DNA of 64,000 nucleotides from Sinohyriopsis cumingii (Eukaryota; Mollusca; Bivalvia; Unionida; Unionidae): positions 16,151,220 to 16,215,219 of the forward strand of contig CM068839.1 of NCBI GenBank assembly GCA_028554795.2. Reading direction: 5' to 3'. This document shows positions 31,721 through 64,000 of the stretch, piece after piece (within the stretch, counting starts at the first letter, position 1; every line of letters starts with the position of its first letter). A program made the position numbers and the translations under genes. A model generated the notes under the pieces. It saw only the letters and a list, made by a program, of their open reading frames with translations, ran no database searches and had not been told where the DNA came from.

Positions 31721-32935
31721 TCAGTCTTCGTTCGATAATTTGATTAAAATAAAGTTAGCTTCATATATAATTTTCAGGATTTTCTTTTCTGGAATGATGT
31801 TGACTGTCAATACTTTGGTCCTTATGTGATTGTCGTATCTAAATTTTAGACTTTTCTTTTCTGGAATGATGTTGACTGTCAATAGCATGGTCCTTATGTG
31901 ATTGTCGTATCTAAATTTTAGACTTTTCTTTTCTGGAATGATGTTGACTGTCAATAGCATGGTCCTTATGTGATTGTCGTATCTAAATTTTAGACTTTTC
32001 TTTTCTGGAATGATGTTGACTGTCAATAGCATGGTCCTTATGTGATTGTCGTATCTAAATTTTAGACTTTTCTTTTCTGGAATGATGTTGACTGTCAATA
32101 GCATGGTCCTTACGTGATTGTCGTATCTAAATTTTAGACTTTTCTTTTCTGGAATGATGTTGACTGTCAATAGCATGGTCCTTACGTGATTGTCGTATCT
32201 AAATTTTAGACTTTTCTTTTCTGGAATGATGTTGACTGTCAATAGCATGGTCCTTATGTGATTGTCGTATCTAAATTTTAGACTTTTCTTTTCTGGAATG
32301 ATGTTGACTGTCAATAGCATGGTCCTTATGTGATTGTCGTATCTAAATTTTAGACTTTTCTTTTCTGGAATGATGTTGACTGTCAATAGCATGGTCCTTA
32401 TGTGATTGTCGTATCTAAATTTTAGACTTTTCTTTTCTGGAATGATGTTGACTGTCAATACTTTGGTCCTTATGTGATTGTCATATCTAAATTTTAGACT
32501 TTTCTTTTCTGGAATGATGTTAACTGTCAATAGCATGGCCCTTACGTGATTGTCGTATCTAAATTTTAGACTTTTCTTTTCTGGAATGATGTTGACTGTC
32601 AATAGCATGGTCCTTATGTGATTGTCGTATCTAAATTTTAGACTTTTCTTTTCTGGAATGATGTTGACTGTCAATAGCATGGTCCTTATGTGATTGTCGT
32701 ATCTAAATTTTAGACTTTTCTTTTCTGGAATGATGTTGACTGTCAATAGCATGGTCCTTATGTGATTGTCGTATCTAAATTTTAGACTTTTCTTTTCTGG
32801 AATGATGTTAACTGTCAATAGCATGGTCCTTACGTGATTGTCATATCTCAGTTTTAGACTTTGAGCTTGAGCGTAAATCACATACTCAAAATATTTCGAG
32901 AAACTATCCCTGGCCTCGTCCTTCATTCCAAACAC
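31721..32935 (-). repeat. 72-bp minisatellite, 15 units, open as 404 codons on - strand
   Basis: Fifteen nearly identical 72-bp units span about 31,780-32,860. Read on the - strand they give an uninterrupted 404-codon frame: a 26-residue lead, 15 repeats of 24 residues with the core FRYDNHIRTMLLTVNIIPEK, and an unrelated 20-residue tail. Variation is limited (Ile/Val, Thr/Ala, Met-Leu/Lys-Val), mostly shared by several units, which fits recent block amplification. The array lies in the SPATA2-like intron on the opposite strand. A 72-bp unit without stops is open by arithmetic, and no signal peptide, promoter, splice site or known domain was seen, so it is called a repeat first and a possible repeat protein second. 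Confidence 0.9.
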
Positions 32936-35275: not shown

Positions 35276-35621
35276 CGTGTTAAAAACAAGCCTTGCAACA
35301 TCGATATTTAATTCTAATTTTCAGGAGACGTACTTGCGTCTGGAAGGGTGAGCATTATAGATTTTGAATCAAAACACGACCCTAAACCAAAGATTAATTC
35401 AGGTCATGAACAATCTAGAGACACAAGATTCGTTGACACATCCGTTATAGAGCAATCGCATCAGTAGTGCTAGAATTCATTAATAATTCTGTAAAACAAT
35501 ATCAAAACCACTTTCCTCCTGGAACGTATAGCATAATGCAATACTTCCTGTTATGTAGATTTAATATTATTTATGGTTTTGGCCTTTGAAAGCTCTAATT
35601 TCACTGTTCATTTTTTTACAG

Positions 35622-36965
35622 ACATATAGCGGCTTTTTCCAAACGAATATCACATCCCATCTAAAGTCTGCCGATGTGATATTTCAGTTGATCGGTTATA
35701 GAGAAGAAAGTAATGGTTTATTTGTGTTAACCAAAGAAATTGACAAAGAACAGCAAGCGACTGTTGCTTTTGAATGTTTCGTCGCATCAGTGGAATGCAA
35801 ATTAATACATGACATCCGAGAAAGGTTACTCGCAGAAACTGTATCAATTATGGAAGTTGTTCAGATTCGATTTTCAAACCGAGGGAACCCAGAAAGCATA
35901 GCACTAATTATAAACCATAGACATGGTAAAATCGACACTCCAGTTGGCCAAGCCAAGCCGCAAAAACAAAGGGGATCCCAAGGTGATGTAAAACAGGGAA
36001 TATCAGACGGGGATGATTCATTCAAGGCGCCTTTTCGAGATAGACTACATGAGCACTTAAAAGTGGCACAAAAGCACAGTTCTGTCGGTGATAAGGATAT
36101 ACCTTACATGGACGAGGATTCAGCAGGTAATTTAGCAGAGGGAACGCTTGATGAACATTTACTGGCAAGTCTTCAGTTGATTCAAAAGGACGCAACAAGA
36201 CTATCTGAAGAAAAACCGCATATGCGAGCATCACAGGAATGGTCTTTTGTGAATGAAGAATTGGAAAGAAGAAAGAAAAGTGGCATTCAAGAACACAAGT
36301 TAATTGAGAGGGGTATGGAAACCAGTCAGAAGGTTAAACGAAAAGTTGCAACAAGTCAAGCTCCTTTGGATTTGAAAATTTCATCGGAAGGAAATTTTTC
36401 AGGAGGATTGTCCACTAGTACTGAAATGCAGCGACATGTTCTGCAATCCAACGTAATGGACAGTGTCTTTAGACAACAGGAACCTTATAAATTCCCTACA
36501 ACTCAAGAGGTCCAGATTTCATCTGCTCCTAGCAGGCACTCAGTCAATCTTCCCGCATATTTAAAGCCGCTTTCAAATGCTGGTGGTTTTTCTGCTCCTG
36601 TTATGACAAGATCAACTGATACCATTCTTAGTAATCACCAAAACATCTCTATGTATAAGAAAAAAGCTTCGGCTCCTCCCGCAGCTAGAGAGAAACTTCA
36701 AACAAGTTACTCGGCTCCTATTGCTGTTAGATCAAATGACTTTAAAGAAAGTGTGTGGCATTGTAAACATTGTACCTTTCGTAATTCAGAAGATAAAGTC
36801 ATTTGTGGAATGTGCTATAGGTCACGTGATAATCTGGAAACAGACTCGCCCGCCATGGGGAAAACTTCAAAGGTTTGTGCGAAATGTACCCTTGATAATT
36901 CAACTGATAATGTAATATGTGATGCTTGTGGAAGCGAGCTAAGGAATGTGCATACTGCAGTTTGA
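35622..36965 (+). CDS. SPATA2: SPATA2/tamozhennic-like protein, terminal exon (residues 95-541)
   Basis: The exon follows a strong acceptor and opens with TYSGFFQTN, the second half of the PUB-like region, which continues with VIFQLIGYREE and FECFVASVECKL to about residue 190. A long polar, probably disordered middle follows. Near the C-terminus are two zinc fingers: a RanBP2-type W-x-C-x2-C...N...C-x2-C finger (WHCKHCTFRNSEDKVICGMC at about 36,757-36,816) and a second C-x2-C-x10-C-x2-C finger lacking the Trp (CAKC...CDAC, about 36,880-36,930). RanBP2-type fingers often bind ubiquitin or RNA. The total of 541 codons is close to human SPATA2 (520). Stop TGA at 36,963. Expected in the cytoplasm as a signalling adaptor, by family inference. 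Confidence 0.9.
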   Translation, partial: TYSGFFQTNITSHLKSADVIFQLIGYREESNGLFVLTKEIDKEQQATVAFECFVASVECKLIHDIRERLLAETVSIMEVVQIRFSNRGNPESIALIINHRHGKIDTPVGQAKPQKQRGSQGDVKQGISDGDDSFKAPFRDRLHEHLKVAQKHSSVGDKDIPYMDEDSAGNLAEGTLDEHLLASLQLIQKDATRLSEEKPHMRASQEWSFVNEELERRKKSGIQEHKLIERGMETSQKVKRKVATSQAPLDLKISSEGNFSGGLSTSTEMQRHVLQSNVMDSVFRQQEPYKFPTTQEVQISSAPSRHSVNLPAYLKPLSNAGGFSAPVMTRSTDTILSNHQNISMYKKKASAPPAAREKLQTSYSAPIAVRSNDFKESVWHCKHCTFRNSEDKVICGMCYRSRDNLETDSPAMGKTSKVCAKCTLDNSTDNVICDACGSELRNVHTAV

Positions 36966-40841: not shown

Positions 40842-40847
40842 ATCGCA
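40842..40847. repeat. Target-site duplication (left), ATCGCA
   Basis: ATCGCA directly precedes the AGTAGT terminus and is repeated exactly at 55,123-55,128 after the other terminus. Six bp is the duplication length known for Polinton integration. Confidence 0.93.
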
Positions 40848-41144
40848 AGTAGTATAGTGGGATACCCTACTGACAATGGGAAAATACATTACAGATCCCC
40901 CTTGGAAACGTTTACAGACAGGATTTTTCAGACCCCCCCCCGGGAACGTGTACAGACAAGGGGAATATTGGGACTGTATACGGACAAGGGAAAGTGGGGT
41001 TGTAGTATAGTGACAATAAAAATGGAACAGGTGAGGTGACGTCACCATACTGAAGATTGGTAACAATGTAGCAAGGGGCTCATTCAATTTGACTGAACAG
41101 CGGGGAAAAATCTAGAATGCTTGGCGGAGCGGGGCTGGCGGGAC

Positions 41145-41202
<58 letters not shown>

Positions 41203-41338
41203 CACATACAACATACAGACATAGATTGATTAACATCAGTCTATGACAAACAACTATACAACCAATTGAAAATAGTTTAGGCAAGAAAGAAAATCTTTTC
41301 GAGGCATATGAGTGGCCCTGAAAAGGGCCTTTGGGTTT
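40848..41338 (+). repeat. Polinton left terminal inverted repeat
   Basis: Its reverse complement matches 54,657-55,122 along its length, for example GACAAGGGAAAGTGGGGTTG, GTTACCAATCTTCAGTA, CATACAACATACAGAC and the histone-type stem-loop. The outer 170 bp hold five GACA(A/G) motifs (40,872, 40,917, 40,955, 40,983, 41,012). An (AT)n tract at about 41,146-41,200 has expanded only in this arm, where the right arm has just TTATATATG. Confidence 0.93.
41294..41329 (-). terminator. Histone-type mRNA 3'-end signal (left arm)
   Basis: On the - strand: flank CCCAAA, stem-loop GGCCCTTTTCAGGGCC (41,329-41,314; 6-bp stem, TTTC loop), flank ACTCA, then GAAAAGA (41,300-41,294) 13 nt after the stem. This is the arrangement of animal replication-dependent histone mRNAs: stem-loop bound by SLBP, and a purine-rich downstream element pairing with U7 snRNA. 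It lies 24 nt after the likely stop codon of the left terminal gene. Confidence 0.85.
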
Positions 41339-41353
41339 TTTCTTGTTCGTCTT

Positions 41354-42344
41354 CTAATCTCTTCTTTTTTTCCACCAACTTTTTTTCTCTCCTACATTCA
41401 TCTCTTTTCTTCTCTTTCTCCTGTTTCTCCTCCTCTTTTTTCCTTTTTTCGTTCTCTTCTTTTTCTATTTTCTCATTCCACTCTCGTCCTTATTCTGTCT
41501 TCTTCGTCCTCCTTGCCTTCTACTTTTTTCCAGCAGGTCTTTCAATCTTTCCTTCGTCTTCTTTACATTGTCTCCATCTTGGCTATGTGAATGTTATAGA
41601 CACCGGACTCCAATTTCATGATGAATTCCTCCACCATCCCAGGATCGTCTATAGCCTCTTGCAATATCTTCATGACGTCGAGCTGATTTGAAGCCATCTT
41701 CTTTAAGTATTCCGTGTAGAATGGCGCGAATTGTTGTATTGAATTACCGTCGATTTCATGCCAATTGGCAACTTGAATAGTCTCTTTTCTAGAGATTTGG
41801 TTAGCCCTGAGATGGGTTGTTGCTTTGAACTTAAGATGCACATGGTTAATGGTTACATCTCCCAGGCCTGGCACCACAGACAACGGCGGCTCCAGTAATT
41901 GTCCCAATTGACTGTAGCTGCTGAGAGTGCGGAGGCAGCTGGGGTGGTCTCATGATCCCAAGCTTCAGTTTGCGGGACCCTGAAGACTTCCCTCCTCCTA
42001 TTCTGCAGGCATGGATACAGCCTCCTGTGGACCCTGAGGCTCCCGCACTTGCCTCTCCAATTCTTGGAACCAATTCTCTGTTTGTGGGACGACGGCTGTC
42101 TGTGCTGGTAGTGGCTGCGGTGATTGTCTGCGGAGGTGTCCTCACCATCGGTTTGACTTCACAGCGCTGTCTTAGCATCAGGTGAGGCGTGATAATTTCT
42201 TTTCTTCTCCTCTTCTTTCTTTTTCTTCTCATCTTTTTCAAGCCTGGCACTTTCCAGGATTGCCTCCATGGCCAGCTCATTCAGGAGTCGTCTGGCATAT
42301 TCCATGTGCATCTGGAGTTCCAGAAGCTTGGTGAGTCTGCTCAT
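41354..42344 (-). pseudogene. Polinton left terminal gene: charged, Lys/Glu-rich protein (broken)
   Basis: It begins at ATG 42,344 (MSRLTKLLELQMHMEYARRL), 47 nt after a TATAAAGG box. It continues in shifting frames through a Lys/Glu-rich stretch, a middle part open as 114 codons (41,907-41,563; ANWHEIDGNSIQQFAPF), and a second Lys/Glu/Arg-rich tract. A C-terminus KSWWKKRRD and stop at 41,354 precede the histone-type stem-loop by 24 nt. The second Polinton ends its terminal gene with RTWWKKWRS, so the C-terminus is conserved. Several frameshifts break it, so the exact protein is uncertain. The basic, coiled-coil-like make-up could suit a DNA-packaging or virion core protein; that is inference. 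No family is recognised. Confidence 0.6.
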
Positions 42345-42390
42345 CTTTCAGTTGATCAATCAACGATGGGTAGCCAGACTGGCAAGTGCT

Positions 42391-42400
42391 CTCCTTTATA
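42391..42400 (-). promoter_or_regulatory. TATA box of the left terminal gene
   Basis: TATAAAGGAG on the - strand, preceded by CACA, 47 nt upstream of ATG 42,344. Similar boxes precede other genes of the element. Confidence 0.7.
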
Positions 42401-43739
42401 TGTGTGAAGCGCGGACGAGAAGGAAAACACCCCCATTCATTCTTTCAGGAGGTAGACACGGAGAAGGCAGGACCGGAGTATCAGAGGCTCATGAATGGGT
42501 GCAGGCGGGAAAACGGGCAAAGCGTGCTACACGCAGGACCACTACAAAACAACGTGGAGACAACGTGGTAGCTTCCTGCTTTTGTCGAGGAACCCATAAT
42601 GGAAATTAATAAGCTGCTGATATAAAGAAGTCGATGGACAGCCGCAACTGAAAAATTGGAGAAAGGCCAGAACACGAGGCAGCCGAAAGAGGGGTCCCCA
42701 CCAGAAACCAAATGGTAGTAAGCCAGCGATAAAGGACCAGGCTGCCTGAGGCAACAATGTTGCACCACAGGAGTTTAATGGAAATTCACCAGACACAAAG
42801 CTATCCAGAGCCAGTGTTGAGTTGTCACCAGAGAAACATACACCAGAGCAGCCTACCATCCCAGATGATACCTTCGAAAAGCAGAAACAGAAAAAGCAAG
42901 ATTTACTGACATATTGCCTGAATGTATACGGTTTTCACTTGGCTTGAAAACTGTTTTTGATGATATCTTTATTGTTAAGATCCTAATTTGATCTGTTTTG
43001 TTATCACCATCAACATTTTTATGCTTCAAATTTTATTTTGCGTAATACAGATTATGCATACGTCATTCCGACTTTACTGATTGGTTTTTAATTAGTTTGT
43101 CCTATGTACACATTGTACACTAAATTCCATCTTCATAAATGAATCATTTTCAATTTATTTTACTTAGTTCATTAATTGCATAGGTGGCTTACACACAATT
43201 GGTACTTTAATTGTCCATTAAAATAACTGGACTAGATTTGGTTAAGTTTCAGGACCCTGTGCGTTGGTGCCTGCTGCCGGGTACCTCTCCTCTCTTGCTT
43301 CTCCCGTGGCGGAGATGTGGAACCATTTTCACCCGTCCAAATCCAGACGTCCCGATGTGAGACATAGAGCTCTGTGAGCACATAAACGCCTGGGGGATGA
43401 GGCACTAATTCCTTCCCTCAGGATCAATTTACAAGCCTGTCGTGCAGGCATAAACAAGTGGTACATATACATATATATGCACACCACTATAATTCAAATA
43501 GTCATATCATCACCCAAAACAAACATGGAACTCGTGGACCTAAAAGAAACACTCACTTTTTACGTATAAATGCTAACTACAAACAAAAACACACCGACTA
43601 TATTTGACAAGCTACGGAAACGAAATGATTATAGACACACTTCTATTTTTTTTTTACATAAAACAAAGAAATGAAGTGCTTATAGACACGTCTATTTTTT
43701 TTAACTTACTAACATACAATTGGCAATTTAACTAGTATG
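42401..43739. other. Polinton interior without assignable gene
   Basis: Short open frames (61-113 codons) on both strands between 42,268 and 42,860 partly overlap and none shows a known domain; they may be remnants of deleted capsid or other genes. A GC-rich patch at about 43,250-43,450, unlike its AT-rich flanks, may be another insertion (no ends found). The stretch 43,451-43,739 shows nothing. Confidence 0.4.
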
Positions 43740-43776
43740 TCTTTTTCTGAGTATTGGTGTACCCCTGAAAAAGGCT
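43740..43776 (-). terminator. Degenerate histone-type 3'-end signal
   Basis: On the - strand AGCCTTTTTCAGGGGT (43,776-43,761) keeps the TTTC loop and five of six stem pairs (one G/G mismatch, one G-T). AGAAAAAGA (43,748-43,740) follows 12 nt later, matching the spacing in the perfect copies. It lies downstream of the small gene at 43,956-44,153. Confidence 0.55.
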
Positions 43777-43955
43777 GTTCTTGTGGACGGAGAGTTATGG
43801 CAAACTTGTATTGTCTAAGATTCTGTCGCCCCATCTGGCGGCAGGTTTTCCCACAGGATAAGGTCTGCTTCTTCGGAAAGAGAAGGAAGGAGAACTCTTT
43901 TGTGTCTAGACGGCAGTCGACAAGTCCTCTGTCTTGTTGCTGTTGTTCTCTCTGC

Positions 43956-44153
43956 TTATGAAGTCTTTATATCTCCACCCATTCTTCTCTGTTTCTTGAT
44001 TTCTTCTCTGAAGAGCTCTTCTATCAGGTCTTCGGTCACTTTTAACATTCTGACATTCTCTGTCTCTTCAGGTTTGGGTATCAGGGTTTGCCTGACATGA
44101 TGTATATTCACGTAAGCTTCGTTCAGCTTGGCTAGTCTTGAACACATCTTCAT
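43956..44153 (-). CDS. Small Polinton protein, 65 codons, TATA-driven
   Basis: ATG 44,153 (MKMCSRLAKLNEAYVNIHHV) lies 45 nt after a TATAAAGC box, exactly like the terminal gene at 42,344. Its start resembles that gene (SRL.KL.E), followed by an acidic/basic helical part ending KKQRRMGGDIKTS. The two genes may be diverged duplicates. The frame is intact but may be cut short: about 180 nt separate its stop from the degenerate histone-type signal. Function unknown. The in-frame extension upstream of this ATG would run through the TATA box, so it was not used. Confidence 0.55.
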   Translation of the reverse strand: MKMCSRLAKLNEAYVNIHHVRQTLIPKPEETENVRMLKVTEDLIEELFREEIKKQRRMGGDIKTS

Positions 44154-44197
44154 AGGAGGATGAGTCAACAATGGATGATCAGAATGCAGAATGCGTC

Positions 44198-44205
44198 GCT
44201 TTATA
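44198..44205 (-). promoter_or_regulatory. TATA box of the 65-codon gene
   Basis: TATAAAGC on the - strand within ACCATATAAAGCGACGC, 45 nt upstream of ATG 44,153. Confidence 0.65.
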
Positions 44206-44667
44206 TGGTTCAAGAGAGAACGCGATAGAAAACACCCCTTCGATATCTAGAGTCGCAACGTTATGATGATTGATTTGAGGGAGAGGGATAAAGAGAAGTC
44301 AAAGAGCATGTATCATGATAAAAATTTAAAACAAACGACAGACAATTTTTCGAAACACATTTTTATTCAAATAACTAACAACCAACAATTAACCATAAAA
44401 CATTTGTTTCAACCAAACATACAAACATTTATCAAATTACAAACTATTTTTGACAAGGTTGACTACGTTGTGAAATAAAGCTAGACATCCACTGATGGAA
44501 GTCATTGGGCCATTAATGTACACTATGTTTCCTAGCTAAAGACAAAAGATAACCAAAAAGGTAACTAAACCATCGATCTACTTTGTCATCGTTTCTAGAA
44601 GAGTGACGGTCAAAATAAGTCACTAAATATTCTAAGGAATATGCAAGACTGCGTTGATGAAGTCTTA
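44206..44667. other. Polinton interior up to the Gypsy insertion
   Basis: No protein recognised. A 71-codon open frame on + shows no domain. Confidence 0.4.
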
Positions 44668-45557
44668 TGTTACGTGTTTATGCTCGAATAAACAGTAACA
44701 CAAGAAAGAGTGAACACAACAAGCTTTGAAAAAATATAATAATTTATTTCCCTGGAAAAAATATGTAAAAATGAAAAATATGAACTTACGGTTTTAAGAA
44801 TCAAATCCAAAAATAATCTAAGAATAATCTACTAACAAAAAGTCCTAATAACAAAATGTTCAAATGATTTCAATTTCGAGTCCCGACGAAGAATCCAAGA
44901 TGGAAGGCGATGACGTATGCTGTAACCTGTAGTGTTGAAGTCTACATTTCCTTGTAGAAACAAGAAATATCACTCCGGTTTCTTAAATCTGAATAAATTT
45001 TTATAAGAGCTGTCTTTGTTCAGGAATTTCACATAAGCACACGTATTTTCCAGGAAGAAAAGAATTAATCCTTTTGAATCCAAATAATTTGAAATAACTC
45101 TCAACAGCACAGCATACACCTTCCAGCATAAAGAAAAAGCCCAGCTACTAAGAATATCTCTCCACAACATAGATTATATCGTATTCAAAAACGCAAAAGA
45201 GAGTCACCACGTGATCATGTTACAGAAACTCGTCGAAATTATATACTTGTTTAAGATCACGTACACCCATTGCGGCCATGACGAAAACCAATCAATTTAT
45301 TCTAAGAAATAAAAAAATTAAATCAGTAGTCCCATCATGACCTCGACAACAACCAATCATTTTAAAATTAAACTAAAACTTATTTACGTGGTTGCTACTA
45401 ATTTTGAATCAAGATCAGGACCTAGATCAACACCTGGTGTTTACTAAAACGAACAGTCAAAGTCAAACTATGTTCTGGAAAAAGTATCATCTCTAATGAA
45501 TAAATTTACATTACAATAGCAATTGATGAAAAATATAAAAAATGTAAAATGTATGCA
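44668..45557 (-). mobile_element. Ty3/Gypsy LTR (3' LTR of the nested element)
   Basis: On the - strand it runs through the same words as the LTRs at 7.5 and 27.4 kb (GAGATGATAC, CACCAGGTGTTGATCTAGG, AATTAATTCTTTT, CAAGCTTGTTGTGTTCACTC, TTACTGTTTATTCGAGC) and ends at GTAACA near 44,668. The upstream border is approximate because the polypurine tract is degraded. Confidence 0.8.
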
Positions 45558-45649
45558 TAAAGCTTTCTTGTTACCGCACACTAATTATGCATGAGGTTAA
45601 AAAGATCTTGTATAAATTACACAGTGTACATGAAATAATACATAGTTGT

Positions 45650-46343
45650 ACACGGTAAAGCGCGTCTGCTATAAATTATCTTTTCCCTTGATGTGCCTGG
45701 TGTCAAGATGATATACCTGTAACAACAAACTCCATCTCAGTATTTGATTTTTATTTTTCATCTTGCCGATGAAAGTAAAGGAGTTGTGGTCACTAAACTA
45801 AATAATCGAAGAATTAGCTGAACTATGGTAAACATCAAAATGTTGTAATGCCAATATCAAAGCCAAACATTCCTTTTCGAATGTTGACTAATTTCTTTGG
45901 TTCTCATTTAATTTCTTAGAAAAATAGCACAAGGAATGATCAAAACTGCTCCAACCCCAGCATCACTTGCATCAACAGACAATTTAAACGATTGGCTGAC
46001 ATTTTAAGGTATAAGAACTGTCGCGCTTTTAAGTATGACTTTTAACTTCTCAAAAGCCTCCTAACATTTTTCAGGCGAAAGGAACATGTTTTTCTTAATA
46101 AATTCGTAAGGGGTTCAGCAATTATAGATAAATTGGAACAAAATTCCCGACAGTATACGGCCATACCTAAAAATCGCATCAGTTACTTTTTATTAACAGG
46201 CATGGGATTCAGAGATGGCCTTGTCCTTAGCATCTATAGGTTTAACTTTTCCATGTCTCACGATGTCTCCAAGAAAAATTACACTAGCACGGCAGAACTC
46301 ACTTTTAGATAAATTCATTGTCAACCATGCATCAGTGAGTCTG
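45650..46343 (-). pseudogene. Gypsy RNase H and connection region (broken)
   Basis: On the - strand, downstream of the reverse transcriptase: AFEKLKVILKSATVL, then DASDAGVGAVLI (RNase H start), then broken pieces ending in IKGKDN-like sequence near 45,690. The LTR follows after about 100 bp, with no integrase between, as in the copy at 28.4 kb. Confidence 0.75.
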
Positions 46344-47042
46344 TCAAACAATTTCCGAATTTTTTGCTAAATGTTCTTTCCAGATGTCGTTGTAGATGAT
46401 GACATCATTGATGCAAGCATCACAATTGTCAAGACCAGTGGTAATCATATTCATGAGACGTTCAAATGTACTTGGCGACCCTTTGATCCCAAAAGGCATT
46501 ACTTTATATTGGTAAAGTTCATCTGGAGTCACGAATGCCGAAATTTCCTTTGTTCTTGATGTTAGTGGAATCTGCCATAATCCTTTCAGAAGGTCAAATT
46601 TGGTGATATATTTGGCATTCCCGATATTATGAATACGGTCACCGATTCTTGGTAATGGGAATAAATCTGTTTTTGTCACACTATTCACCTTCCTATAATC
46701 AGTACACATACGGAAAGTTTTATCTGGTTTTGGAACAAGTATGCATGGTGAACTCCAGTCACTTTTACTGTGCTCTATAAAATCATTCTCCAGCAAATAT
46801 TGAATTTTTTTTCCCAAGTATTCCTGTTTGAAAGGGTTCATCAAGTACGGGTATTGTTTGACAGGTTTGGAATGTACAATTTCAACGTCATGGAAAATGT
46901 TGCCTGTTCTTGTAGAAACATCTGGAAATAAGTGCACGTATTGTAATGATAACTGTTTAAGTTCATTTCTTTCTTGCTCTTGCAAATGTGAAAGTTTCTG
47001 GTCCAGATCTTTCATAATTTCTGAATTCCGAAGATTTGTCAC
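46344..47042 (-). CDS. Ty3/Gypsy reverse transcriptase fragment
   Basis: An open frame of 232 codons carries reverse transcriptase landmarks: WSSPCILVPKPDKTFRMCTD, then DYRKVN, FPLPRI, KYITKFDLLKG, AFVTP and YKVMPFGIKGSPSTFERLMN. The catalytic Y-x-D-D box is changed to C-I-N-D (in DACINDVIIYNDIW), losing one catalytic Asp, so the enzyme would be inactive. The segment before it (to about 47,220) is broken and joins Polinton sequence; no 5' LTR, gag or protease was found, so the insertion is truncated at its 5' end. It is nested in the Polinton between the 65-codon gene and the ATPase gene. Confidence 0.9.
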   Translation of the reverse strand: MTNLRNSEIMKDLDQKLSHLQEQERNELKQLSLQYVHLFPDVSTRTGNIFHDVEIVHSKPVKQYPYLMNPFKQEYLGKKIQYLLENDFIEHSKSDWSSPCILVPKPDKTFRMCTDYRKVNSVTKTDLFPLPRIGDRIHNIGNAKYITKFDLLKGLWQIPLTSRTKEISAFVTPDELYQYKVMPFGIKGSPSTFERLMNMITTGLDNCDACINDVIIYNDIWKEHLAKNSEIV

Positions 47043-47255
47043 TCAAATATCAGTAGAATCCGATGATATTCCTTCACTTAGATCTTCACCGAGTGGGACA
47101 GGTACAACTAAATTAATTGCATGTTTAACCTGGATATCTCTTTCAATTTATTCCCAGCTTGTGCAGTTACCAGAGATAAGACAAAGAAAGCTCTTGATAA
47201 GGAAGTATTTCTTTAGCTGACACGTGTATTGGTCAAGCTTTTCATGAGGTCAGTT

Positions 47256-47973
47256 TCACTCCTTGTTTGGATCATTGAGAAGGTATTGATCATAGTGATC
47301 CTCTTTTAACCACTCATTCTCTTTATAATCGGGAGTAGTGGGCTTTAAATTCATGAGTAAATGGGCGTCTGGGGTTTGAGTGGCATCGTCGTACGCATGA
47401 GTTAGTCAAGGCGTTCCTAACTGTTTGGGTAAGACTTGCACTTGCGATTTATCTCTAGGGCTTTTAAACAAAACCACATAATGTGCATTGAGACTGATGG
47501 TGTGATGGGCTTTATTTTGTTGAAGCACATTTTGGGTGATGTAAATGACACTGGCATTACGATGATGCCCTTTGCGATTAAACCACAGTTTAATTTCTTC
47601 TTCGTCTTTTTCTAACATGTAGTCGAAAATGACCAGATTGGTTTTTACTGGGGTCAGACACGATCCCGTTGTCTTCACCAGGAATGTCTTCCACAAAGAT
47701 GATGGAATCGCCTTGCCTTTCTCGCAAGAGGCTGTATGCCCATTGCTACTCTTTGTAACACCACACGATCCGTTGAGGTGGAAGATCGATCAAATGATTT
47801 TTATATTCGATCCAACGTTTGACGAATTCGGTTTTGCCTGAACTGCTAGGCCCCACTATTAACATGTTAAAGGGATGGCGAAGATAAAAGGCCTCCCAAC
47901 TGGTGCGATCTAAGTGCTCGTCGATGACTTTGAAAGTGGAGGAAGAAGGAATAGGTACAGCAGATGCAGCCAT
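47256..47973 (-). pseudogene. Polinton FtsK/HerA-type packaging ATPase (frameshifted)
   Basis: ATG 47,973 starts MAASAVPIPSSSTFKVIDEH. The Walker A loop is MLIVGPSSSGKTEFV (about 47,860-47,820). After a frame change near 47,745-47,700 come the Walker B strand LVIFDYMLE and the sensor-like VIYITQN, then SLNAHYVVLFKSPRDKSQ. A second change near 47,405 leads to a C-terminus AHLLMNLKPTTPD...LLNDPNKE and stop at 47,256. This is the genome-packaging ATPase of Polintons and adintoviruses, of A32 type. A TATA box and the upstream gene's AATAAA lie just before it. The Gypsy element begins right after its 3' end. Confidence 0.9.
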
Positions 47974-48020
47974 AGTGCAAGGAATGTCACTTTTGACACG
48001 AAGACAGATAAGACAAGTGT

Positions 48021-48050
48021 CTTTATAATTTTTTTCGGGACAGGTTTATT
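48021..48050 (-). promoter_or_regulatory. ATPase TATA box next to upstream AATAAA
   Basis: On the - strand AATTATAAAG (48,030-48,021) lies 48 nt before the ATPase ATG. AATAAA (48,050-48,045), a likely poly(A) signal for the upstream gene, lies 14 nt before it. The two signals are packed together as in compact viral genomes. Confidence 0.6.
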
Positions 48051-48153
48051 TTTTTAAATAAGAACAACACGAAAGACAAAAATGCATAAAAGCCAAATGG
48101 TTAAGTACAGCGTTAGAATACACATCAAAATGATCAGAGTTGAATATAACAAG

Positions 48154-48632
48154 TTACTGTACAAAATGTTTTGGTAACAAAGGTGTCCTAGGTACAGTGT
48201 GTAATGTTCTTACAGTCTCCACATCGGGTACAGTCACACAGGTGTCCTTCCGGAGTGGCCTTTCGGGAATGTCCATGACAATCCAGTCCTGAAGGAAGTG
48301 GTTTTCCTCGGTGACGGGTTCTTCTAGCACTGTCACTAACACATGTTCAAAAGTTACTTTATTCACTGGTCGTTTGAACTGAGAATCACAACTCTTGGAC
48401 ATAATTGGCCACTTCTTTGGTCCAAGCCTCGAAACTCCAATTTTTATATTCACGTACATCTGTCCAGTGAGGGTGTAAGTCACAAGCTACATACACATCG
48501 ATGTTCACATCTTCAGTACCTAAACGTTGACGAATCTTTCTTTCCCCGTAGAGGTCGAGAAGAATCCATATGAAAATGCAAGGCTTTTAACAAAACGAGT
48601 TTCTTGTGCTCATTTAAAGGGACCACTTTCAT
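48154..48632 (-). pseudogene. Unknown Polinton protein (frameshifted)
   Basis: ATG 48,632 opens MKVVPLNEHKKLVLLKALHF. After a frame change comes DVYVACDLHPHWTDVREYKN and NWSFEAWTKEVANYVQEL, then, after another, FEHVLVTVLEEPVTEENHFL and a stop at 48,154. The text changes frame at least twice, so the gene is broken. A TATA box lies at 48,861-48,870, giving a leader of about 200 nt, and AATAAA lies 104 bp after the stop. No family recognised; a structural protein is possible. Confidence 0.5.
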
Positions 48633-48860
48633 GTTTTATTTGGTGGCAAGTAATGTTGGTAAAGAGTCCACAAGGAATCGGCTGGTAAACGAAACCACAG
48701 AAAGGAACTCACTAAGACACACACCACACGTCGACTCCAATTCAATGGAAACAGTTCTCGTCGTAAGTGTTGGTAATCCTCCACCGTTTGAATACTCTCA
48801 TCAATTACCCTCCACGGAATCTGTTGTACCACCACTGATAAAGGCCGTGGCATGGTAGCC

Positions 48861-48870
48861 CGTTTTTATA
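48861..48870 (-). promoter_or_regulatory. TATA box overlapping a stop codon
   Basis: TATAAAAACG on the - strand, preceded by GAGG. The TAA inside it (48,868-48,866) is also the stop codon of the upstream gene. A 74-codon open frame beginning 16 nt after the box would start before the expected transcription start and is not used. Confidence 0.6.
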
Positions 48871-49165
48871 CCTCTTTTTGTCGGAGGCAATAAGTGTACT
48901 TTCTGCATAGAGATGATCGTACTCCAGTGGCGAGTCTAAATGGTTTGGTCACTAACTTGCACATCACAAGACACCGTTCAGAAGTTTCATCTTGAACTAA
49001 GTTTACGTTGAGCAAAAGATTTTGGTAACCCTCTAACTCTTCCTCTGGAATTCCTTACAGTATGACTACCTTGTAGTAAAAGGAAGCAGTCACAAGAAAC
49101 CAATCTTGCTCGCCCACATCCAGCTTAACAATGTCTGACCACCGGAACACTTTCATCTGAATCAT
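48866..49165 (-). pseudogene. Unknown Polinton protein, ~100 codons, one in-frame stop
   Basis: From ATG 49,165: MIQMKVFRWSDIVKLDVGEQ, then DWFLVTASFYYKVVIL, a stop, then GIPEEELEGYQNLLLNVNLV and on to a terminal stop that forms part of the next gene's TATA box. The single stop within otherwise good coding text suggests recent decay. A TATAAATAAT box lies at 49,335-49,344. Not recognised. Confidence 0.55.
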
Positions 49166-49334
49166 TTGTCTTATAGCATTCAGGTACCAATGGTTTAAAC
49201 ATCGGTGACGTGACAGATGCAGTTGTTCTTGCGTTTCACTTTTATTTTGACCAGCTTTCGGTAAACGCGTTATCTAAACTACACAGGCAAACTACGAATG
49301 TTCTCTTATAAAGTATCCATGGATCATGTCACTC

Positions 49335-49344
49335 ATTATTTATA
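49335..49344 (-). promoter_or_regulatory. TATA box of the ~100-codon gene
   Basis: TATAAATAAT on the - strand, within GGGTATAAATAATGAG, about 170 nt before ATG 49,165. It lies 34 nt after the upstream gene's AATAAA (49,383-49,378). Confidence 0.55.
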
Positions 49345-49382
49345 CCCACGTTAGGGATCACTTCTAATTGTCCTTATTTTAT

Positions 49383-49769
49383 TTACAATCTTCTCCTAGA
49401 GCGAAAGTAATGGACATAGTGAGTAATTTCTGACCACTGCCATTCAGGGTACCGGTCAAAAATGTCAATAAAATCTTCAAATGTAAACAGTATAAAGCGG
49501 AATAATCGGATAAACGCAGTCTTGATCCAGAGAAATCTAACGAGATTGTTGACTTTTTTAATTTTCCTCTTGTGAATTTCTTGACACAAAAGGTCTACAG
49601 TCACCAATGGAGATTTTGCTCTGGCAAGTCCTTGCAAAACATTATTGTAGATCTTCTCTTCCAGATCGTTTGGTATTCCTTGAGTATTACTTTTCAGACG
49701 GGGTTTAAATACTTGTCTCGGCGTTGTCCAATGTTTGACTTCTAGCCAAGCTGGTTTCTTAAACAACAT
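49383..49769 (-). CDS. Unknown Polinton protein, 128 residues
   Basis: Intact frame from ATG 49,769 (MLFKKPAWLEVKHWTTPRQV) to TAA 49,383; the stop overlaps AATAAA (TAAATAAA), a likely poly(A) signal. The protein is basic with an aromatic, helical C-terminal half (FLWIKTAFIRLFRFILFTFE). Its start lies 14 nt beyond the stop of the BIR gene, so both may share a message. No known domain; it is one of the few unbroken genes in the element. It could be a small virion or membrane-interacting protein, but this is a guess. Confidence 0.6.
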   Translation of the reverse strand: MLFKKPAWLEVKHWTTPRQVFKPRLKSNTQGIPNDLEEKIYNNVLQGLARAKSPLVTVDLLCQEIHKRKIKKVNNLVRFLWIKTAFIRLFRFILFTFEDFIDIFDRYPEWQWSEITHYVHYFRSRRRL

Positions 49770-49780
49770 GGTATGCCACT

Positions 49781-50107
49781 TCAATGACTACGTCCCACTA
49801 AAGGTAGGTAGTGACAATGCTGAGAACATCGAGCATGTTCCAGGTAAGCCGAATCTTTCTGATTCCACTCGTAAAGTGACACACCGCAACTGGAGCACTT
49901 GATTTTATTCCCTGTGCCCAAATAGATAAATCCGGCTCTGGCTAATTCTTCGGTGGTAGGTCCTCCCAGATATTAAGGCCATTTTCCTTGGAAAGTTTGG
50001 AATTGACTTTCAAAGTATTCAGGTAATCATACAGGGAACGAATACTCGTCTTTCACAGGTTCATTTCGATGAGAGTACGGTGAAATCCGCTCAATTTTGG
50101 ATGACAT
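49781..50107 (-). pseudogene. BIR-domain (IAP-like) protein encoded by the Polinton
   Basis: From ATG 50,107 (MSSKIERISPYSHRNEPVKD) one frame, with two in-frame stops, runs to TGA 49,781. It shows a full baculoviral IAP repeat: QTFQGKWP, then TTEELARAGFIYLGTGNKIK, then the zinc ligands C-x2-C-x16-H-x6-C (CSSCGVSLYEWN...LEHARCSQHC). The usual Arg at the start of the R-x-TF motif is Gln. BIR proteins block caspases or act in ubiquitin signalling, and insect and mollusc DNA viruses carry them. Here it is single-BIR, about 108 codons, without a RING finger. A role in blocking host apoptosis is inferred from the family; the stops (near 50,035 and 49,995) indicate it is no longer made intact. Confidence 0.85.
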
Positions 50108-50466
50108 CCGTAGGGTGGTAGCTGCATGGTTTCACGTGGAGGATGACAATGATAATGAAAACCAGTAAAGTGTTAAGGTGTTCTGTAACGAGTGGCATCG
50201 CTTTCGCATCCGTCAGGTTTCACACGCACAGCATCACTTTCTCGGTAAGTGTAGTGGTAGTAGTAGTAGTAGTCAAAGCAAAGTTCCCATGATGTGATAC
50301 TGAATCGCTGAGGTCACAGTGTACGGCAGCGCTGTCATCGCAAGGCATAGCTTCGCACTCCACTTGAGAATCCCCGAACTTGAATGAAGTCTGTTTAAAA
50401 GTAATCATCTTTCTCCCTTGGTCTTGGTAGTTACAATTAACTAACGGTCTTGGACGTTGTCCCTTT
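50108..50466 (-). other. Polinton segment between polymerase and BIR gene
   Basis: An open frame on the - strand reads MITFKQTSFKFGDSQVECEA from 50,408 to about 50,220 and ends with a Thr run from an AGT/GTA repeat. It may be a small gene or polymerase read-through; no domain recognised. Confidence 0.35.
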
Positions 50467-53400
50467 TTATAGGCTGACCAATATCGACGTGACCGTAAAG
50501 TTGTTGGGAAGCCACACTCGCTTCTGGTATACGATTTCATACATTTTTTCCAAAGGCCGACTGAAAATTTGGTGTGTGGGTAAACGTGCAATCTTGTGCA
50601 GCACGTAGAAGGTCGCTTTAAAATTTACATCCTGTCCAGACTGCAAGGCTTCTTTCAACACGCCAAAGTTCACCACTCGACTGGTGCGATAATTGAGAGT
50701 CAATCCTTTCACTTTACACTCGGTGTGCACTTCTCCTTGTTTGTTCAGGTATTCGTAATGTAATTTTGGAACCTCCACTAGCAAAAATTAAAAATCTTAT
50801 CGTCGGGGCGCTTGTGCGTCCAGGTTCCAAAACGGTCTCCTTCGATTCTAGGGTTACAGTGACCCAAGCGATCGATGTAGTTGCAACTGTCCGTGTCAAA
50901 GTACAGAACGCGATCCCCTAACAGTTCTAAAACTTCGTACAATTTTAAGCGAGCATGAGATGTCACGTAAGCCACAATGATAACATTTCCAAATTCGTCG
51001 GCTTCTACAAGGTCCAGTTCTTCTTCGCAATTGACTAAGATCAAGTCCTCATGAAGGACATTCGCGTGTTTCGTATATTAGTTGTTCTAGTAAATCATCT
51101 GGAAATAGCAGGATGGTTCTGTCAAATACTCCGTCTTGGGTAAACACGGTCGTTGTGCCAATTTACCCAAAAAGCAATTTGACATCACTTTGGCAAACGA
51201 TCGCCTTCCTTCCTTTTTCTCCACGTGGTCTAAACAAAAGTGTTGCCTTCCTGCTCCCATTATTTCTCTTTAAATTTCTTTTGGTCTTCAGGAGTATGGC
51301 ACCAGGAAGGATAGCTGTTGGCTTCTTGTTTCAGTTTCAAAAAGGCATCCACTTAGTCGGCAAAAATGTGTTTCTGAGTCCCGTCGCCCTTGTGGTATTA
51401 TTCTGTCTTGGGAAAGTGGTAAATTTTGTACACTTGTAACAGTTGGTATCCCAAGTCCAGAGCTTTGAACAATTCCACGCTGACCCACGTTATCGTCAAG
51501 GCGCGTTCTTCCTGGGTGTGCTGACAATGCTGGTCTTGATTGCACATTTCGGCACAAGTACTGCACAATGGAAACATCAGTTTTCCTTGGCAATGGTGAG
51601 GTAAAAAGAGAGGGTACAAGGCTGTGGGAGCAAGACTTTGCACTTGATCATTCCTTCGTATTGTCGAACGTCGTCCAGGTCGATGTGCTCGGTTAGTAAT
51701 TGCAAGTGCCCTGGGGGAAAGTGGCAATATTTGCACACGTAAGGATACATCGAACACACGTCCAAGTATTTGATTTCTTGTCCTTTCTCCTCATTGGGGT
51801 GGTACAGTAAACAGATGCCATTCGTCCGTCCTCCGTACAAATTATCCCGCGGATTCAGTGGGTCCACCAGCATGTAACTTTCCACGATGCGTTTAAACTC
51901 GGGATCGGTTTTCAAACGGTGATCATACTCGTTTTCCCACATTTCCACCACTTGGTATCCTTGCAGTTCTAACTTCAAGCGTCGCTGACAAGTGGTCTCG
52001 TACAAGTCTTCCATGGTCCATTGTAAAAACTGATTTTTAGTGTCACGTTGAGGGTAGCAAAGGGGAAATCAGTGAAAAAAGCATCCGTTAAACTCGTACA
52101 CGATCTTGGAGTTTTCTAAGTTTAAGTCCCAGCCATCCACAGAATACGTTCCGATGGTCTATTTGCCGCCTCCGTTGCGGGCATGTTGAATCCATTTGTC
52201 TTCTTTGTTATACGAGCAATGTAGCCAGCGTAGGGCTTTGACCGAGTATTGACGTTTGACATGGTCGTTTGAAGGCAGATGACAGCTAGGGTGTTTTCGG
52301 GCATGAATCGTTGGCGGTACACTAAGGAACACGCTTTGGCAATGGAGCATGCTTCATTCAAAGGATTGATCCCTCTGTGTTCCGTGAACAGTTCTCGCAA
52401 TTTTCCACAGCAACGCCTTAAAATGTCCACGTCGGAACGACAATACTTTAACATTTCTTCCTGAAAGTCAAAGGGGTCTGAGGTGTGAGTCTGGTACCAA
52501 GCGTAGAATGCTTCTCGTTGTTCATGCACATGTTGTCGGGGTCGTAGTAGTGAGCCTCAGGTGAATGGGGTAGAACGGCGTTTTATTGGCTTCGGTATTG
52601 AAAAAGTGCGGAAAATAGCCTTTGGTCATTTCTGTCATTCCAAACGTTTTAGGTGTTCAACTCAAAAGTAAGGCCAAGTAAATCATCGAATCATTAAACG
52701 GCATTTGTCCCACTTGCATGAAAATGATTTTGGCTCCGTTCAAAGTCACTTTCGGACGTTCGGTACTTTGTTCCATATAGTATCTCATAGGAAACTGTCC
52801 ATCGTATCCCGAGAAATTGTGAGCCATCACCGTGACATGGCGATGGCAATCTCCGTAACGTTCGATGTCGTCTTGGCTCCACGTTTCGTCGCTGGGGTCT
52901 AAGTTCCATTGGGCGAAATCGGCTAGCGTGTTTGGTCCCCGGAAGATTTTTCACGTCCTCCAGGAATCTTGCTGCGGTGAGGACAATGACAAAAGATAGA
53001 TTCTTGGATGCAGTTATCACACGCTCGATGAGCCACGCAGAAATTTGGAAGGTGAATGCCAGTTTCTTGCATGCATTCGAAATCGAAAAAGATGAAATTG
53101 CCTTTCTTCTGTTCATCTTCTTCGTGTTAGGGCTGATATTTTTTAATGTAGCATTCGTGTTCCAAGTCAACGATTTGGTGACAAATGTGACATCGTTTCT
53201 TTCCTGAACATACGTGCGTCTTGGCATTATTGCTATGTATGACTTGTCCACTAGTAGGGCACAATCTCAGGAGTTGACAAGCACTTTCTGATGTGAACCT
53301 TACGTCTTCAGATGTTGTTGGTAACAGGCAGGGCTGACAAAGGTGTGCTGACAAGCAGAGCAATGCACTCGTTCTTGTCCTTCGTCAAGACAGAGTTGAG

Positions 53401-54266
53401 AAGCCAAACATACTGAGCATTTCTGTCCACAATGCTTGTATTGCTCTCCATTGCTATAGCCATAGACACATTTCTCACAGCAATAACCGTATTCCAGGAA
53501 TGCAGCGATACTGGTGATGGCATCGAAATGTTCATCGTGATAATAGACGTGAATGTATTTTCCGTCTTTGAAATGTTTGCCTCGAAACAATAGAGGTCCA
53601 CGCACCTCATGAGGGTGTACATTCAAGGTGTAGCATGAAGCCAAGACGTCTTGCAATTTTTGCATTTCATGAATGCCTCAGGGTGTGTCTTTGGATAGCC
53701 CTGCTTGCTGTAACAGGAGTTTTGCTGTTCTTGGTTATTTGGCTCGGTTCGATTTTTGAATAGTTTGCCGGGCTCATTTCCATTCTACCATCTCGTTCTT
53801 GTCGGCATACGTTCGTCCTACGACGATGGCACGCGCTAAACACATCTAGTATTGAGGGTTATTAATTCGGACGAGACTCTTTTCGGTGCTGCGAAGGTCG
53901 TCCACCAATAACACTTTTTTACGTCCTGTCCCTTGAGGAAGATACACGTGGTCGTGAACAGTGTCGCTTTTCCATCGGTGATGTGAAACTTGTCGTAGGT
54001 TGTTCCACGTGTTGAATCTTGTAAATGACTTTGGAAGATGTCAGTTCTCCTGGGCTGCTAAACTCGATCCAAACGGGGGACTTCAAACTGTCGTGATGAC
54101 TAGAAAATCTCAAGCGATCGTCTTCTTTGGCTTGACAATGACATTTCAGTGTGGTTAACAAAGAATCCCACACCTCGGTGATGAACCCTATGCTTTCTCC
54201 AACGGTTAATGGTGGTGAATTTTGGTTGGATGTAGGATCTCTGGGTCTGGATTCTGGCTCACTCAT
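50467..54266 (-). pseudogene. Protein-primed family B DNA polymerase (broken)
   Basis: Starts at ATG 54,266 (MSEPESRPRDPTSNQ). In order on the - strand: a Cys/His zinc-binding N-terminal region (53,665-53,140; YCCEKC, KHCGQKCSVC), exonuclease I FFDFECMQ (about 53,095), exonuclease II HNFSGYDGQF (about 52,820), exonuclease III YCRSDVDIL (about 52,440), polymerase motifs NLYGGRTNG (51,845), YLDVCSMYPY (51,765) and YFDTDS (50,903-50,886), then KGLTLNYRTS and YQKRVWLPNNF at the C-terminus. Many frame changes and stops divide it into pieces of 60-145 codons. About 1,200 codons in total is usual for Polinton polymerases. It would replicate the linear element from protein-primed ends. Its TATA box is at 54,431-54,440. 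Confidence 0.93.
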
Positions 54267-54430
54267 GTCTTCAAAAACGCTTGCATGAAGTTGAGCTAAG
54301 ACTTCAGCTACTGTGCTAGGCGATAAATCACGTTTCTGCCTCTTACTTTCTTCTCATTTCTCCACGAAATGATGCGATCATTTCATCTTGACTGCAAAAT
54401 ATCAAAAGACTACATTTTGAAAGCCATGGA

Positions 54431-54466
54431 TCCTTTTATATCCATGTCAGACCAGTGTATATAAAG
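54431..54466. promoter_or_regulatory. Divergent TATA boxes: bidirectional promoter
   Basis: TATAAAAGGA on the - strand (54,440-54,431) faces the polymerase gene. TATATAAAG on the + strand (54,458-54,466) faces the right terminal repeat. Only 17 bp lie between them. Histone gene pairs are also often transcribed divergently, but with wider spacing. Confidence 0.7.
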
Positions 54467-54656
54467 GGTCAGTGTTTTCCCTTCCAGTATTCATTTCACT
54501 CTCAAACCGGCCAGAACGATGAAAGAGCCCACATAGATCGAACTTCTCATCAGACCTTTGCGAGGTATCATACGAAAGTTTTCTACAGAGAAGCCGACGG
54601 ACTACTCCCCCTTCTTTCTAGATAAAAGTCAAGATACTTGCTATATATGTTACATA
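54467..54656 (+). pseudogene. Remnant of a + strand right-end gene
   Basis: After the + strand TATA box come a short leader, an ATG at 54,519 (MKEPT then stop), and about 130 bp before the right histone-type stem-loop. No frame is long. The promoter and 3' end of a transcription unit are present, but almost nothing between. The simplest explanation is deletion of a right-end gene, possibly one of the missing hallmark genes. A short non-coding transcript is an alternative. Confidence 0.45.
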
Positions 54657-55122
54657 AACCCAAAGGCCCTTTTCAGGGCCATTCCTATGCCTAGAAAAGA
54701 TTTACTTTCTTGCCTAAAATTTATTTAGTCGGTTGTATAGTTGTTTGCGTCATAGATTAATATCCATAAATCTGTCTGTATGTTGTATGTGTTATATATG
54801 TCTTTATCTTGCCAATCCCGCTCTTCCAAGCGTTCTAGGTTTTCCCCCGCTGTTTAGTCAAATTGAGGTCAGCCCCTTACGGCATTGTTACCAATCTTCA
54901 GTACCATGACGTCACCGCACCTGTTTCGTTTATATGGCCCCTATACAACAACCCCACTTTCCCTTGTCCGTATACAGTCCCAATATTCCCTATGTTAAAT
55001 TCCCATTGTCCGTAAACGTTCCCAGGGGTGTCTGAAAAATCTTGTCCGTAAACGTTGCCAAGGGGGGGGGGGGGCTGTAATATAGTTTCCCCATTGTCCG
55101 TAGAGTATTCCACTATACTACT
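54657..55122 (-). repeat. Polinton right terminal inverted repeat
   Basis: Reverse complement of 40,848-41,338 without the expanded AT tract. Read inward on the - strand it starts AGTAGTATAGTGG and carries GACAA motifs (GGACAATGGGG, GGACAAGATT, GGACAATGGGAATT, GGACAAGGGAAAG). Confidence 0.93.
54665..54700 (+). terminator. Histone-type mRNA 3'-end signal (right arm)
   Basis: Flank CCCAAA, stem-loop GGCCCTTTTCAGGGCC (54,665-54,680), flank ATTCC, then GAAAAGA (54,694-54,700) 13 nt later. Same elements and spacing as in the left arm and the second Polinton. Confidence 0.85.
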
Positions 55123-55128
55123 ATCGCA
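55123..55128. repeat. Target-site duplication (right), ATCGCA
   Basis: Exact copy of 40,842-40,847, directly after the terminus. Confidence 0.93.
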
Positions 55129-63358: not shown

Positions 63359-63382
63359 AGTAGTGAATGGGGTGAGATTAGC

Positions 63383-63712
63383 GACAATGGGAATTAGCAT
63401 TAAAAACACCCCCTGGGTAAGATTAGCGACAATGGAAATTTAACATGGGCAAAAAACCCTGGGTAAGATTAGCGACAATGGAATTTAACATTGGAGAAAG
63501 GAAAAAAAGGAAATATCCATTTTAGCGACAAAGGCATTCGAACAATGGAAAAAAAATATCGATTCTAGGGACAAAGGCAATTGAACATGGGGAATAGAGT
63601 TTGGGTCTGTCTAGGGACAAGGGGAATTGAACATGGGAATAGAGTTTGGGTTTGTCTAGGGACAAAGGGGAATTGAACATGTTAGAAAAAAAAACTACTT
63701 TAGGGACAAGGG
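63383..63712 (+). repeat. GACAA(N)GG array, 8 copies at ~45-bp spacing
   Basis: GACAATGG, GACAAAGG or GACAAGGGG starts at 63,383, 63,428, 63,474, 63,527, 63,570, 63,616, 63,661 and 63,705 (spacings 45, 46, 53, 43, 46, 45, 44). Most are followed by AATT.AACATGGG. The matching outer part of the first Polinton has five motifs. Confidence 0.9.
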
Positions 63713-63776
63713 GAATTGAACATGGGATTTTAAAAAAAAAAAAATTAAAAATGGGGTAGGCAATCGAAAGGCTATC

Positions 63777-63812
63777 TCTTTTCGAGAAATGTGGGTGGCC
63801 CTGAAAAGGGCC
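63777..63812 (-). terminator. Histone-type mRNA 3'-end signal (second Polinton)
   Basis: On the - strand: flank ACCCAAA, stem-loop GGCCCTTTTCAGGGCC (63,812-63,797), flank ACCCAC, and GAAAAGA (63,783-63,777) 13 nt after the stem. It starts 15 nt after the stop codon of the - strand gene. The ACCCA after the stem matches the usual cleavage region of histone pre-mRNAs. Confidence 0.88.
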
Positions 63813-63827
63813 TTTGGGTTTCTTCTT

Positions 63828-64000
63828 CTAACTCCTCCACTTCTTCCACCAAGTCCTCACTTTTTCCATTATTCCTTTCTTCTTCTTTTTCTCGTCTGGC
63901 ATCCAGTCTGGATGGCCCAAGGCTCTAAACTTTTCCTGGACTTTGATCCAATTCTGATTTAGCCTTTCAAAATCAGCCTGTTTCTTTTTGTTTTCCTGAT
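63828..64000 (-). CDS. Second Polinton terminal gene, C-terminal 57 codons
   Basis: Open from the window edge to TAG at 63,828. The fragment is strongly basic and helical: KQADFERLNQNWIKVQEKFR, LGHPDWMPDEKKKKK, then RTWWKKWRS at the end. The first Polinton's terminal gene ends KSWWKKRRD in the same place, just before the same stem-loop. The frame is unbroken here, so this gene may still be functional. Basic charge and histone-like mRNA end would suit a DNA-binding core protein; no family is recognised and this is inference. Confidence 0.65.
   Translation of the reverse strand, partial: QENKKKQADFERLNQNWIKVQEKFRALGHPDWMPDEKKKKKGIMEKVRTWWKKWRS

Follow-up and report, generated by a model that had tools for sequence, protein, structure and literature searches.

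Putative histone-type mRNA 3′ ends on small genes of a Polinton and a related element

The window, that is, the whole stretch of 64,000 nucleotides (64 kb) that was analysed, contains one degraded Polinton and one end of a second, related element. The degraded Polinton (element 1, 14,275 bp, positions 40848..55122) has AGTAGT...ACTACT termini and is flanked by a 6-bp target-site duplication, ATCGCA, with its left copy at 40842..40847 and its right copy at 55123-55128. Termini of the form (AGT)2//(ACT)2 together with a 6-bp target-site duplication are described for vertebrate Mavericks in PMC8097293. Terminal inverted repeats, as in Polinton/Maverick elements, were also found in element 1, and its inverted-repeat arms differ at 61 of 445 aligned positions. 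The second element (element 2, 63359..64000) is represented by one end with an AGTAGTG terminus and exits the window. The earlier note described the sequence around its signal as widely different from that of element 1, whereas the two match at 81% identity over a block of 85 nt surrounding the signal, and subterminal repeats of 39-64 nt are common to both elements with 77-82% identity. Subterminal repeat units like ATGTTAAATTCCCATTGTC, located at 63359-63730 and 54950-55030 at the ends of both elements, are perhaps protein-binding sites.

Three other features of the window were recorded. An open frame of 404 aa (31721-32935, minus strand) consists largely of a 72-bp tandem repeat, a second one of 459 aa (35586-36965, plus strand) has two CxxC zinc-finger-like motifs near its end as judged by eye, and a dispersed repeat family with copies at 7304-7477, 13759-13932 and 62999-63172 looks SINE-like, also by eye.

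The coding content of element 1 was analysed with Pfam on 30 broken pieces from the window. Family B DNA polymerase (PF03175) was found in two of the 30 pieces, scoring 30.7 bits (cut-off 25.8) in one and, below that cut-off, 21.1 bits in the other. For the piece at 47406-47789, 28 of 31 candidates were homologs and 13 of the 28 carried PF04665, which points to an FtsK/A32-like packaging ATPase; Pfam found nothing in this piece itself, and the adjoining piece at 47746-48045 scored 16.4 bits (cut-off 22.8). None of the 30 pieces matched RVE integrase, and neither capsid proteins nor an adenovirus-like protease were recognised in them. A BIR (inhibitor of apoptosis) domain (PF00653, E 4e-16) lies at 49781-49972 on the minus strand and likely belongs to an anti-apoptosis gene carried by the Polinton. 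A reverse transcriptase fragment (PF00078, E 1.6e-17) at 46344-47042, minus strand, is probably a later retroelement insertion. Judged by its sequence, element 1 is a genuine Polinton, though broken.

The 16-mer GGCCCTTTTCAGGGCC has exactly three matches in the window. Site A (41314..41329, minus strand) and site B (54665..54680, plus strand) lie in the two terminal repeats of element 1, and site C (63797..63812, minus strand) lies in element 2; the three are 438-481 bp from the element ends. In 100 shuffles, GGCCCTTTTCAGGGCC with up to three mismatches was matched 0.10 times on average and at most once. At each of the three sites CCAAA stands 5′ of the stem, GAAAAGA follows 13 nt 3′ of it (41300-41294 at A, 54694-54700 at B, 63783-63777 at C), and TTGCC comes after that (41284-41280, 54710-54714 and 63763-63759, respectively). 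An Rfam scan, independent of the 16-mer search, recovered the same sites with RF00032, the histone 3′ UTR stem-loop, at 42.5 bits (E 3.2e-9) for C, 37.4 bits (E 2.5e-7) for A and 34.8 bits (E 2.4e-6) for B, all above the gathering score of 34. The three perfect copies, their positions and strands, and the CCAAA and GAAAAGA flanks reported in the earlier note were thus confirmed by exact search and by the family model.

The hairpins at A, B and C fold at -10.1 kcal/mol each, a stability only slightly above that of shuffled sequences (z -1.5 to -1.8). Because this margin is small, the identity of the signal rests on the model score and the spacing. CA is the usual cleavage context of histone mRNA 3′ ends; the 5 nt after the stem are ACTCA at A and ACCCA at C, both ending in CA, and ATTCC, without CA, at B. 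Neither AATAAA nor ATTAAA was found on the sense strand between the stem and the element end at any of the three sites. AATAAA is common elsewhere in element 1, so its absence over about 450 nt three times is only mildly unusual. A 22-mer of the signal had no exact match in a collection of prokaryote genomes. The covariance model assigns sites A, B and C to the SLBP-type stem-loop family, and the signal also has its purine element at the proper distance, points in the direction of the genes and lies close to a stop codon.

Two further sites were observed in the left arm of element 1, both on the expected strand and outside the terminal repeats. Site D (43740..43776, minus strand) is a degenerate stem-loop with five of six pairs, GAAAAAGA at the same spacing and TTGCC at 43726-43722. 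Site E (41779..41823, minus strand), an additional copy absent from the earlier note, has a decayed stem with four of six pairs, GAAAAGA at 41789-41783 and TTGCC at 41771-41767. A covariance model built from A, B and C and run over the window scored these three themselves at 72.2, 70.7 and 68.2 bits, E at 24.1 bits (E-value 0.0015) and D at 16.1 bits (E-value 0.2, weak by sequence), and beyond the five sites no match in the window exceeded 12.7 bits. With an ungapped matrix, the 28.7 bits of E were reached by none of 200 random sequences, the largest of which scored 19.5, while the 12.6 bits of D were reached by 30 of 200, and an unrelated place in the window (17424, plus strand) outscored D. 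RF00032 did not list E at E-values up to 1 and did not report D even in a 301-base search up to an E-value of 10. Site E was also matched by blastn from element 2 at site C (E 7.6e-5). Site D is weak and not significant alone by these sequence scores; the degenerate copy proposed earlier at these positions thus stood in its spacing and failed in its family assignment.

Sites D and E form only weak hairpins (-2.9 and -3.8 kcal/mol, vs -10.1 for the perfect ones), and their changes are uncompensated. Damaged stems of this kind are expected in a dead element and are also compatible with lost function. The purine element is kept 13 nt after the stem at all five sites. A joint pattern of TCAGGG, AAAAGA and TTGCC, composed after the sites were known, gave five matches in 64 kb and none in 100 shuffles, and all of its matches lie inside the two elements in gene sense. 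Homology among the five sites seems to extend over some 60 nt and to include TTGCC, which to our knowledge does not belong to the histone signal. The position of D and E in internal units makes the signal more than a terminal feature, although both copies are decayed.

Gene units end at each of the five sites; for A, C and D the stop distance refers to the reading frame that closes closest to the stem. Unit a (43795..44205, minus strand) has TATAAAG at 44205, an ATG at 44153 or 44147 and a broken frame whose stop ends at 43795, 18 nt before stem D. Two homologs of gene a, P0029 and P0030, encoded on metagenome contigs of 2,133 and 1,577 bp, are 81 and 78% identical over 83% of a 65-residue piece, and by this similarity gene a is assigned to a real protein family with two relatives. 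P0030 (pI 9.69) has a basic tail, and its AlphaFold model, weak at a pTM of 0.33, consists of helices at residues 4-22 and 26-74 and a disordered tail. Unit b (41846..42400, minus strand) has TATAAAG at 42400, an ATG at 42344 and two frames that close at 41853 and 41846, upstream of E; at this site, two frames stop 12 and 34 nt before the stem. Its DNA aligns as a paralog with the 5′ portion of unit a, across promoter and gene start (blastn E 9e-11), although the gene a and gene b pieces showed no BLASTP similarity as proteins. GGGGTGTTTTC is kept slightly upstream of the TATA boxes of both units (upstream of 44205 and 42400, minus strand).

The remaining units end at the perfect stem-loops. 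Gene c (41354..41767, minus strand) is a terminal basic ORF with a provisional start, a broken frame and no assigned TATA box; it ends in WWKKRRD, its stop codon at 41354 precedes stem A by 24 nt, and its piece had no homolog in a protein search. Unit d (54460..54680, plus strand) has TATAAAG at 54460 and an ATG at 54519 and ends at stem B, with stops ending 7 and 39 nt before the stem, no intact long frame and no recognisable coding. The terminal gene of element 2 (63828..63998, minus strand, 56 codons in the window) ends in WWKKWRS and its stop, 15 nt before stem C, and its tail has a pI of 10.2. By eye, the genes at A and C thus have similar basic tails, ...WWKKRRD and ...WWKKWRS. The distance from TATA box to ATG is 58 (or 52) nt in unit a, 56 nt in unit b and 59 nt in unit d, these three TATAAAG boxes having been picked out of 18 TATAAA[AG] matches in element 1.

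None of the proteins could be linked to histones. Eight peptide motifs characteristic of histones had no match in the six frames of the 64-kb window, and Pfam found no histone domain in P0029, P0030 or the 30 window pieces. As far as tested, this appears to be a histone 3′ signal without a histone.

The identity of the signal between copies was put forward in the earlier note as a sign of selection, an argument that proved weaker than claimed for one pair of copies and better for another. Sites A and B belong to the two copies of the terminal inverted repeat of element 1 and are therefore not independent, so that the perfect copies represent two elements. An unchanged 22-nt core between A and B has a probability of about 0.03 by chance, and the alignment of the arms shows identical runs of 43, 33, 26, 24 and 21 nt along its length. 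With this probability and with longer identical runs present, selection within the terminal repeats was discounted. Between the two elements, whose ends are otherwise diverged, an uninterrupted identity of 26 nt was observed at the signal; this core is the better argument for selection.

Further cases were searched for in other collections. IMG/VR was searched with the PolB piece, the ATPase alignment A1 and P0030, and no confirmed relative of the element was found; alignment A1 likewise found no relative among prokaryote genomes. Four stem-loop pattern scans of IMG/VR returned 0, 3, 5 and 0 stretches, and all eight were inspected. RF00032 reported a single one of them (L003, 24.8 bits, below gathering); its stem is perfect, but the purine element is absent and its ORFs are phage-type. 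In L001, all six positions are paired, two of them as G-U, and GAAAAGA follows 15 nt on, but a reading frame of 170 aa encloses the whole, and the contig is phage-type. L008 is paired but lacks the purine element, and pairs are broken in L002 and L004-L007. All eight stretches were treated as chance or prokaryotic terminators. The occurrence of a stem with GAAAAGA at 15 nt in the phage-type gene of L001 shows that, in a collection of this size, stem and purine element can come together more loosely by chance. Across the seven IMG/VR scans, pattern and protein together, no further case was found, and the three protein-based scans met no relative of the element either. A 531-base stretch with gene a and site D had no match among phage records, and the PolB piece had none among solved structures.

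In the literature searched, which covered few subscription papers, no report was found of a histone stem-loop or histone mRNA in Polintons or of adintovirus polyadenylation. Papers that bring the histone stem-loop together with SLBP and viral mRNA, or with transposons and U7 snRNA, were unrelated as judged by title and opening of the abstract. In four virus papers searched by term, histones were named only as proteins in one and were absent in three. The locus therefore presents a known RNA signal in a gene class without a prior report, in the literature searched, of using it.

The claim of the earlier note that Polintons carry histone-type 3′-end signals is supported in part, by the RF00032 family assignment, the spacing, the orientation, the genuine nature of element 1 and the like-built end of element 2. 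On the evidence of one 64-kb locus with two related elements, the first of them broken, we consider it fairly likely that these Polintons express some of their small genes as histone-type mRNAs without poly(A), and several small end genes are probably expressed as such messages. It is established for histone mRNAs, in part through PMC5011920, that the hairpin is recognised by SLBP and the purine element by base pairing with U7 snRNP, and that cleavage follows a CA some 5 nt beyond the stem. Bivalve histone mRNAs carry the stem-loop, with the purine element detected nearby in some only, as stated in PMC6210712.

In the proposed mechanism, these Polintons, as integrated elements of adintovirus type, would carry short monocistronic units close to their termini. 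Each unit would encode a small, often basic protein, followed by the stop and, 15-24 nt on, by the histone-type 3′ end; three units open with a TATA box, which an ATG follows at 56-59 nt. RNA polymerase II would transcribe the unit, SLBP would bind the hairpin, U7 snRNP would pair with GAAAAGA, and the RNA would be cut about 5 nt after the stem. In cells that are replicating DNA, this would yield a message that is stable, is translated and carries no poly(A) tail. The analysis establishes the signal by its family score, location, spacing and direction, and with it the extent of element 1 and the gene units; to these the scheme adds SLBP and U7 use, cleavage, S-phase coupling and the absence of poly(A), all of which we infer. 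In a broader form, which we hold to be an even call, a lineage of animal Polintons or adintoviruses would have a gene class, defined from TATA box to histone-type 3′ end, for SLBP/U7-processed, replication-coupled, non-polyadenylated mRNAs; these might encode small DNA-binding or virion proteins switched on when host or viral DNA is copied, and TTGCC might be an extra, undescribed 3′ element.

Several rival explanations were weighed against this proposal. An ancestor may have acquired a host histone gene tail once, with the tail then spread by duplication in the element family and now inert. The homologous appearance of the five sites over about 60 nt with TTGCC included, the duplicate nature of units a and b and the decay of D and E agree with such a history, but none of the eight histone peptide motifs was found in any of the six frames of the window, the signal lies 15-24 nt after the stops of at least two different genes (the A/C terminal gene and, at D, gene a), and the 26-nt core has remained unbroken between two diverged elements while the flanks changed. 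We consider this history unlikely, and yet the strongest of the rivals. The palindrome might instead act at the DNA level near the terminal repeats, in replication, packaging or transposition rather than in RNA processing, as the distance of A, B and C from the element ends (438-481 bp) and the location of A and B in the terminal repeats would suggest. Against this role, D and E lie in the interior of the element, the purine element stands 13 nt after the stem at every one of the five sites, each site points the way of the gene before it, and a DNA palindrome would need no RF00032 flanks, which leaves it very improbable.

Descent of the genes themselves from histones, comparable to the adomavirus Histoid genes, with an inherited 3′ end and proteins that would be viral histones, was given the same low standing as a DNA-level role. 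The basic character of the proteins (pI 9.69 for P0030 and 10.2 for the element 2 tail) fits it, as do the Histoid genes known in adomaviruses, one of which occurs, according to PMC11071296, next to adintovirus-like virion genes in a clam dataset. Pfam found no histone domain in P0029, P0030 or the 30 window pieces, however, and the gene a model, weak as it is, predicts a helix pair with a disordered tail and no histone fold. A chance palindrome has some ground in the 173 hairpin candidates of the window (5 or 6 pairs, TTTH loop), a few of which have a purine run nearby, and in the stem with GAAAAGA at 15 nt inside the phage gene of contig L001. Four further candidates in the window combine a hairpin with a purine run at roughly this distance, three of them overlapping (48039-48061, plus strand; 47635, minus strand). 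The Rfam E-values of 2.4e-6 to 3.2e-9 and the lack of exact 22-mer matches in prokaryote genomes refute chance for A, B and C and render it hardly credible overall; for D alone it may hold.

If the preferred reading, processing of Polinton messages as histone-type mRNAs, is true, a virus-like element uses an ending otherwise known from histone messages, borrows the replication-linked mRNA machinery of its host and may time its genes with it, and an integrated element gains a natural way to tie expression to S phase. Such messages would stay out of poly(A)-selected RNA-seq, and Polinton expression may therefore have been underestimated.

Compared with the histone mRNA 3′ end (RF00032 plus the downstream element), the signals described here have the same six-pair stem, UUUC loop and CCAAA flank, the same ACCCA-like cleavage context at A and C and a purine element 13 nt after the stem, and they likewise follow a close stop codon in small genes, some with a TATA box. 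They differ in that the genes are non-histone by the tests run, the carrier is a virus-like transposon and TTGCC is added after the purine element. Element 1 shares with Polinton/Maverick elements (adintoviruses, polintoviruses) the termini, the target-site duplication, PolB, an A32-like packaging ATPase and the terminal inverted repeats, and departs from them in the histone-type 3′ ends on small genes near its ends and in the presence of a BIR domain. The adomavirus Histoid genes are similar in that animal DNA viruses carry histone-related features, including the clam case with its adintovirus-like virion genes (PMC11071296); in adomaviruses the resemblance to histones lies in the protein, whereas in the present elements it lies in the RNA signal and not in the protein.
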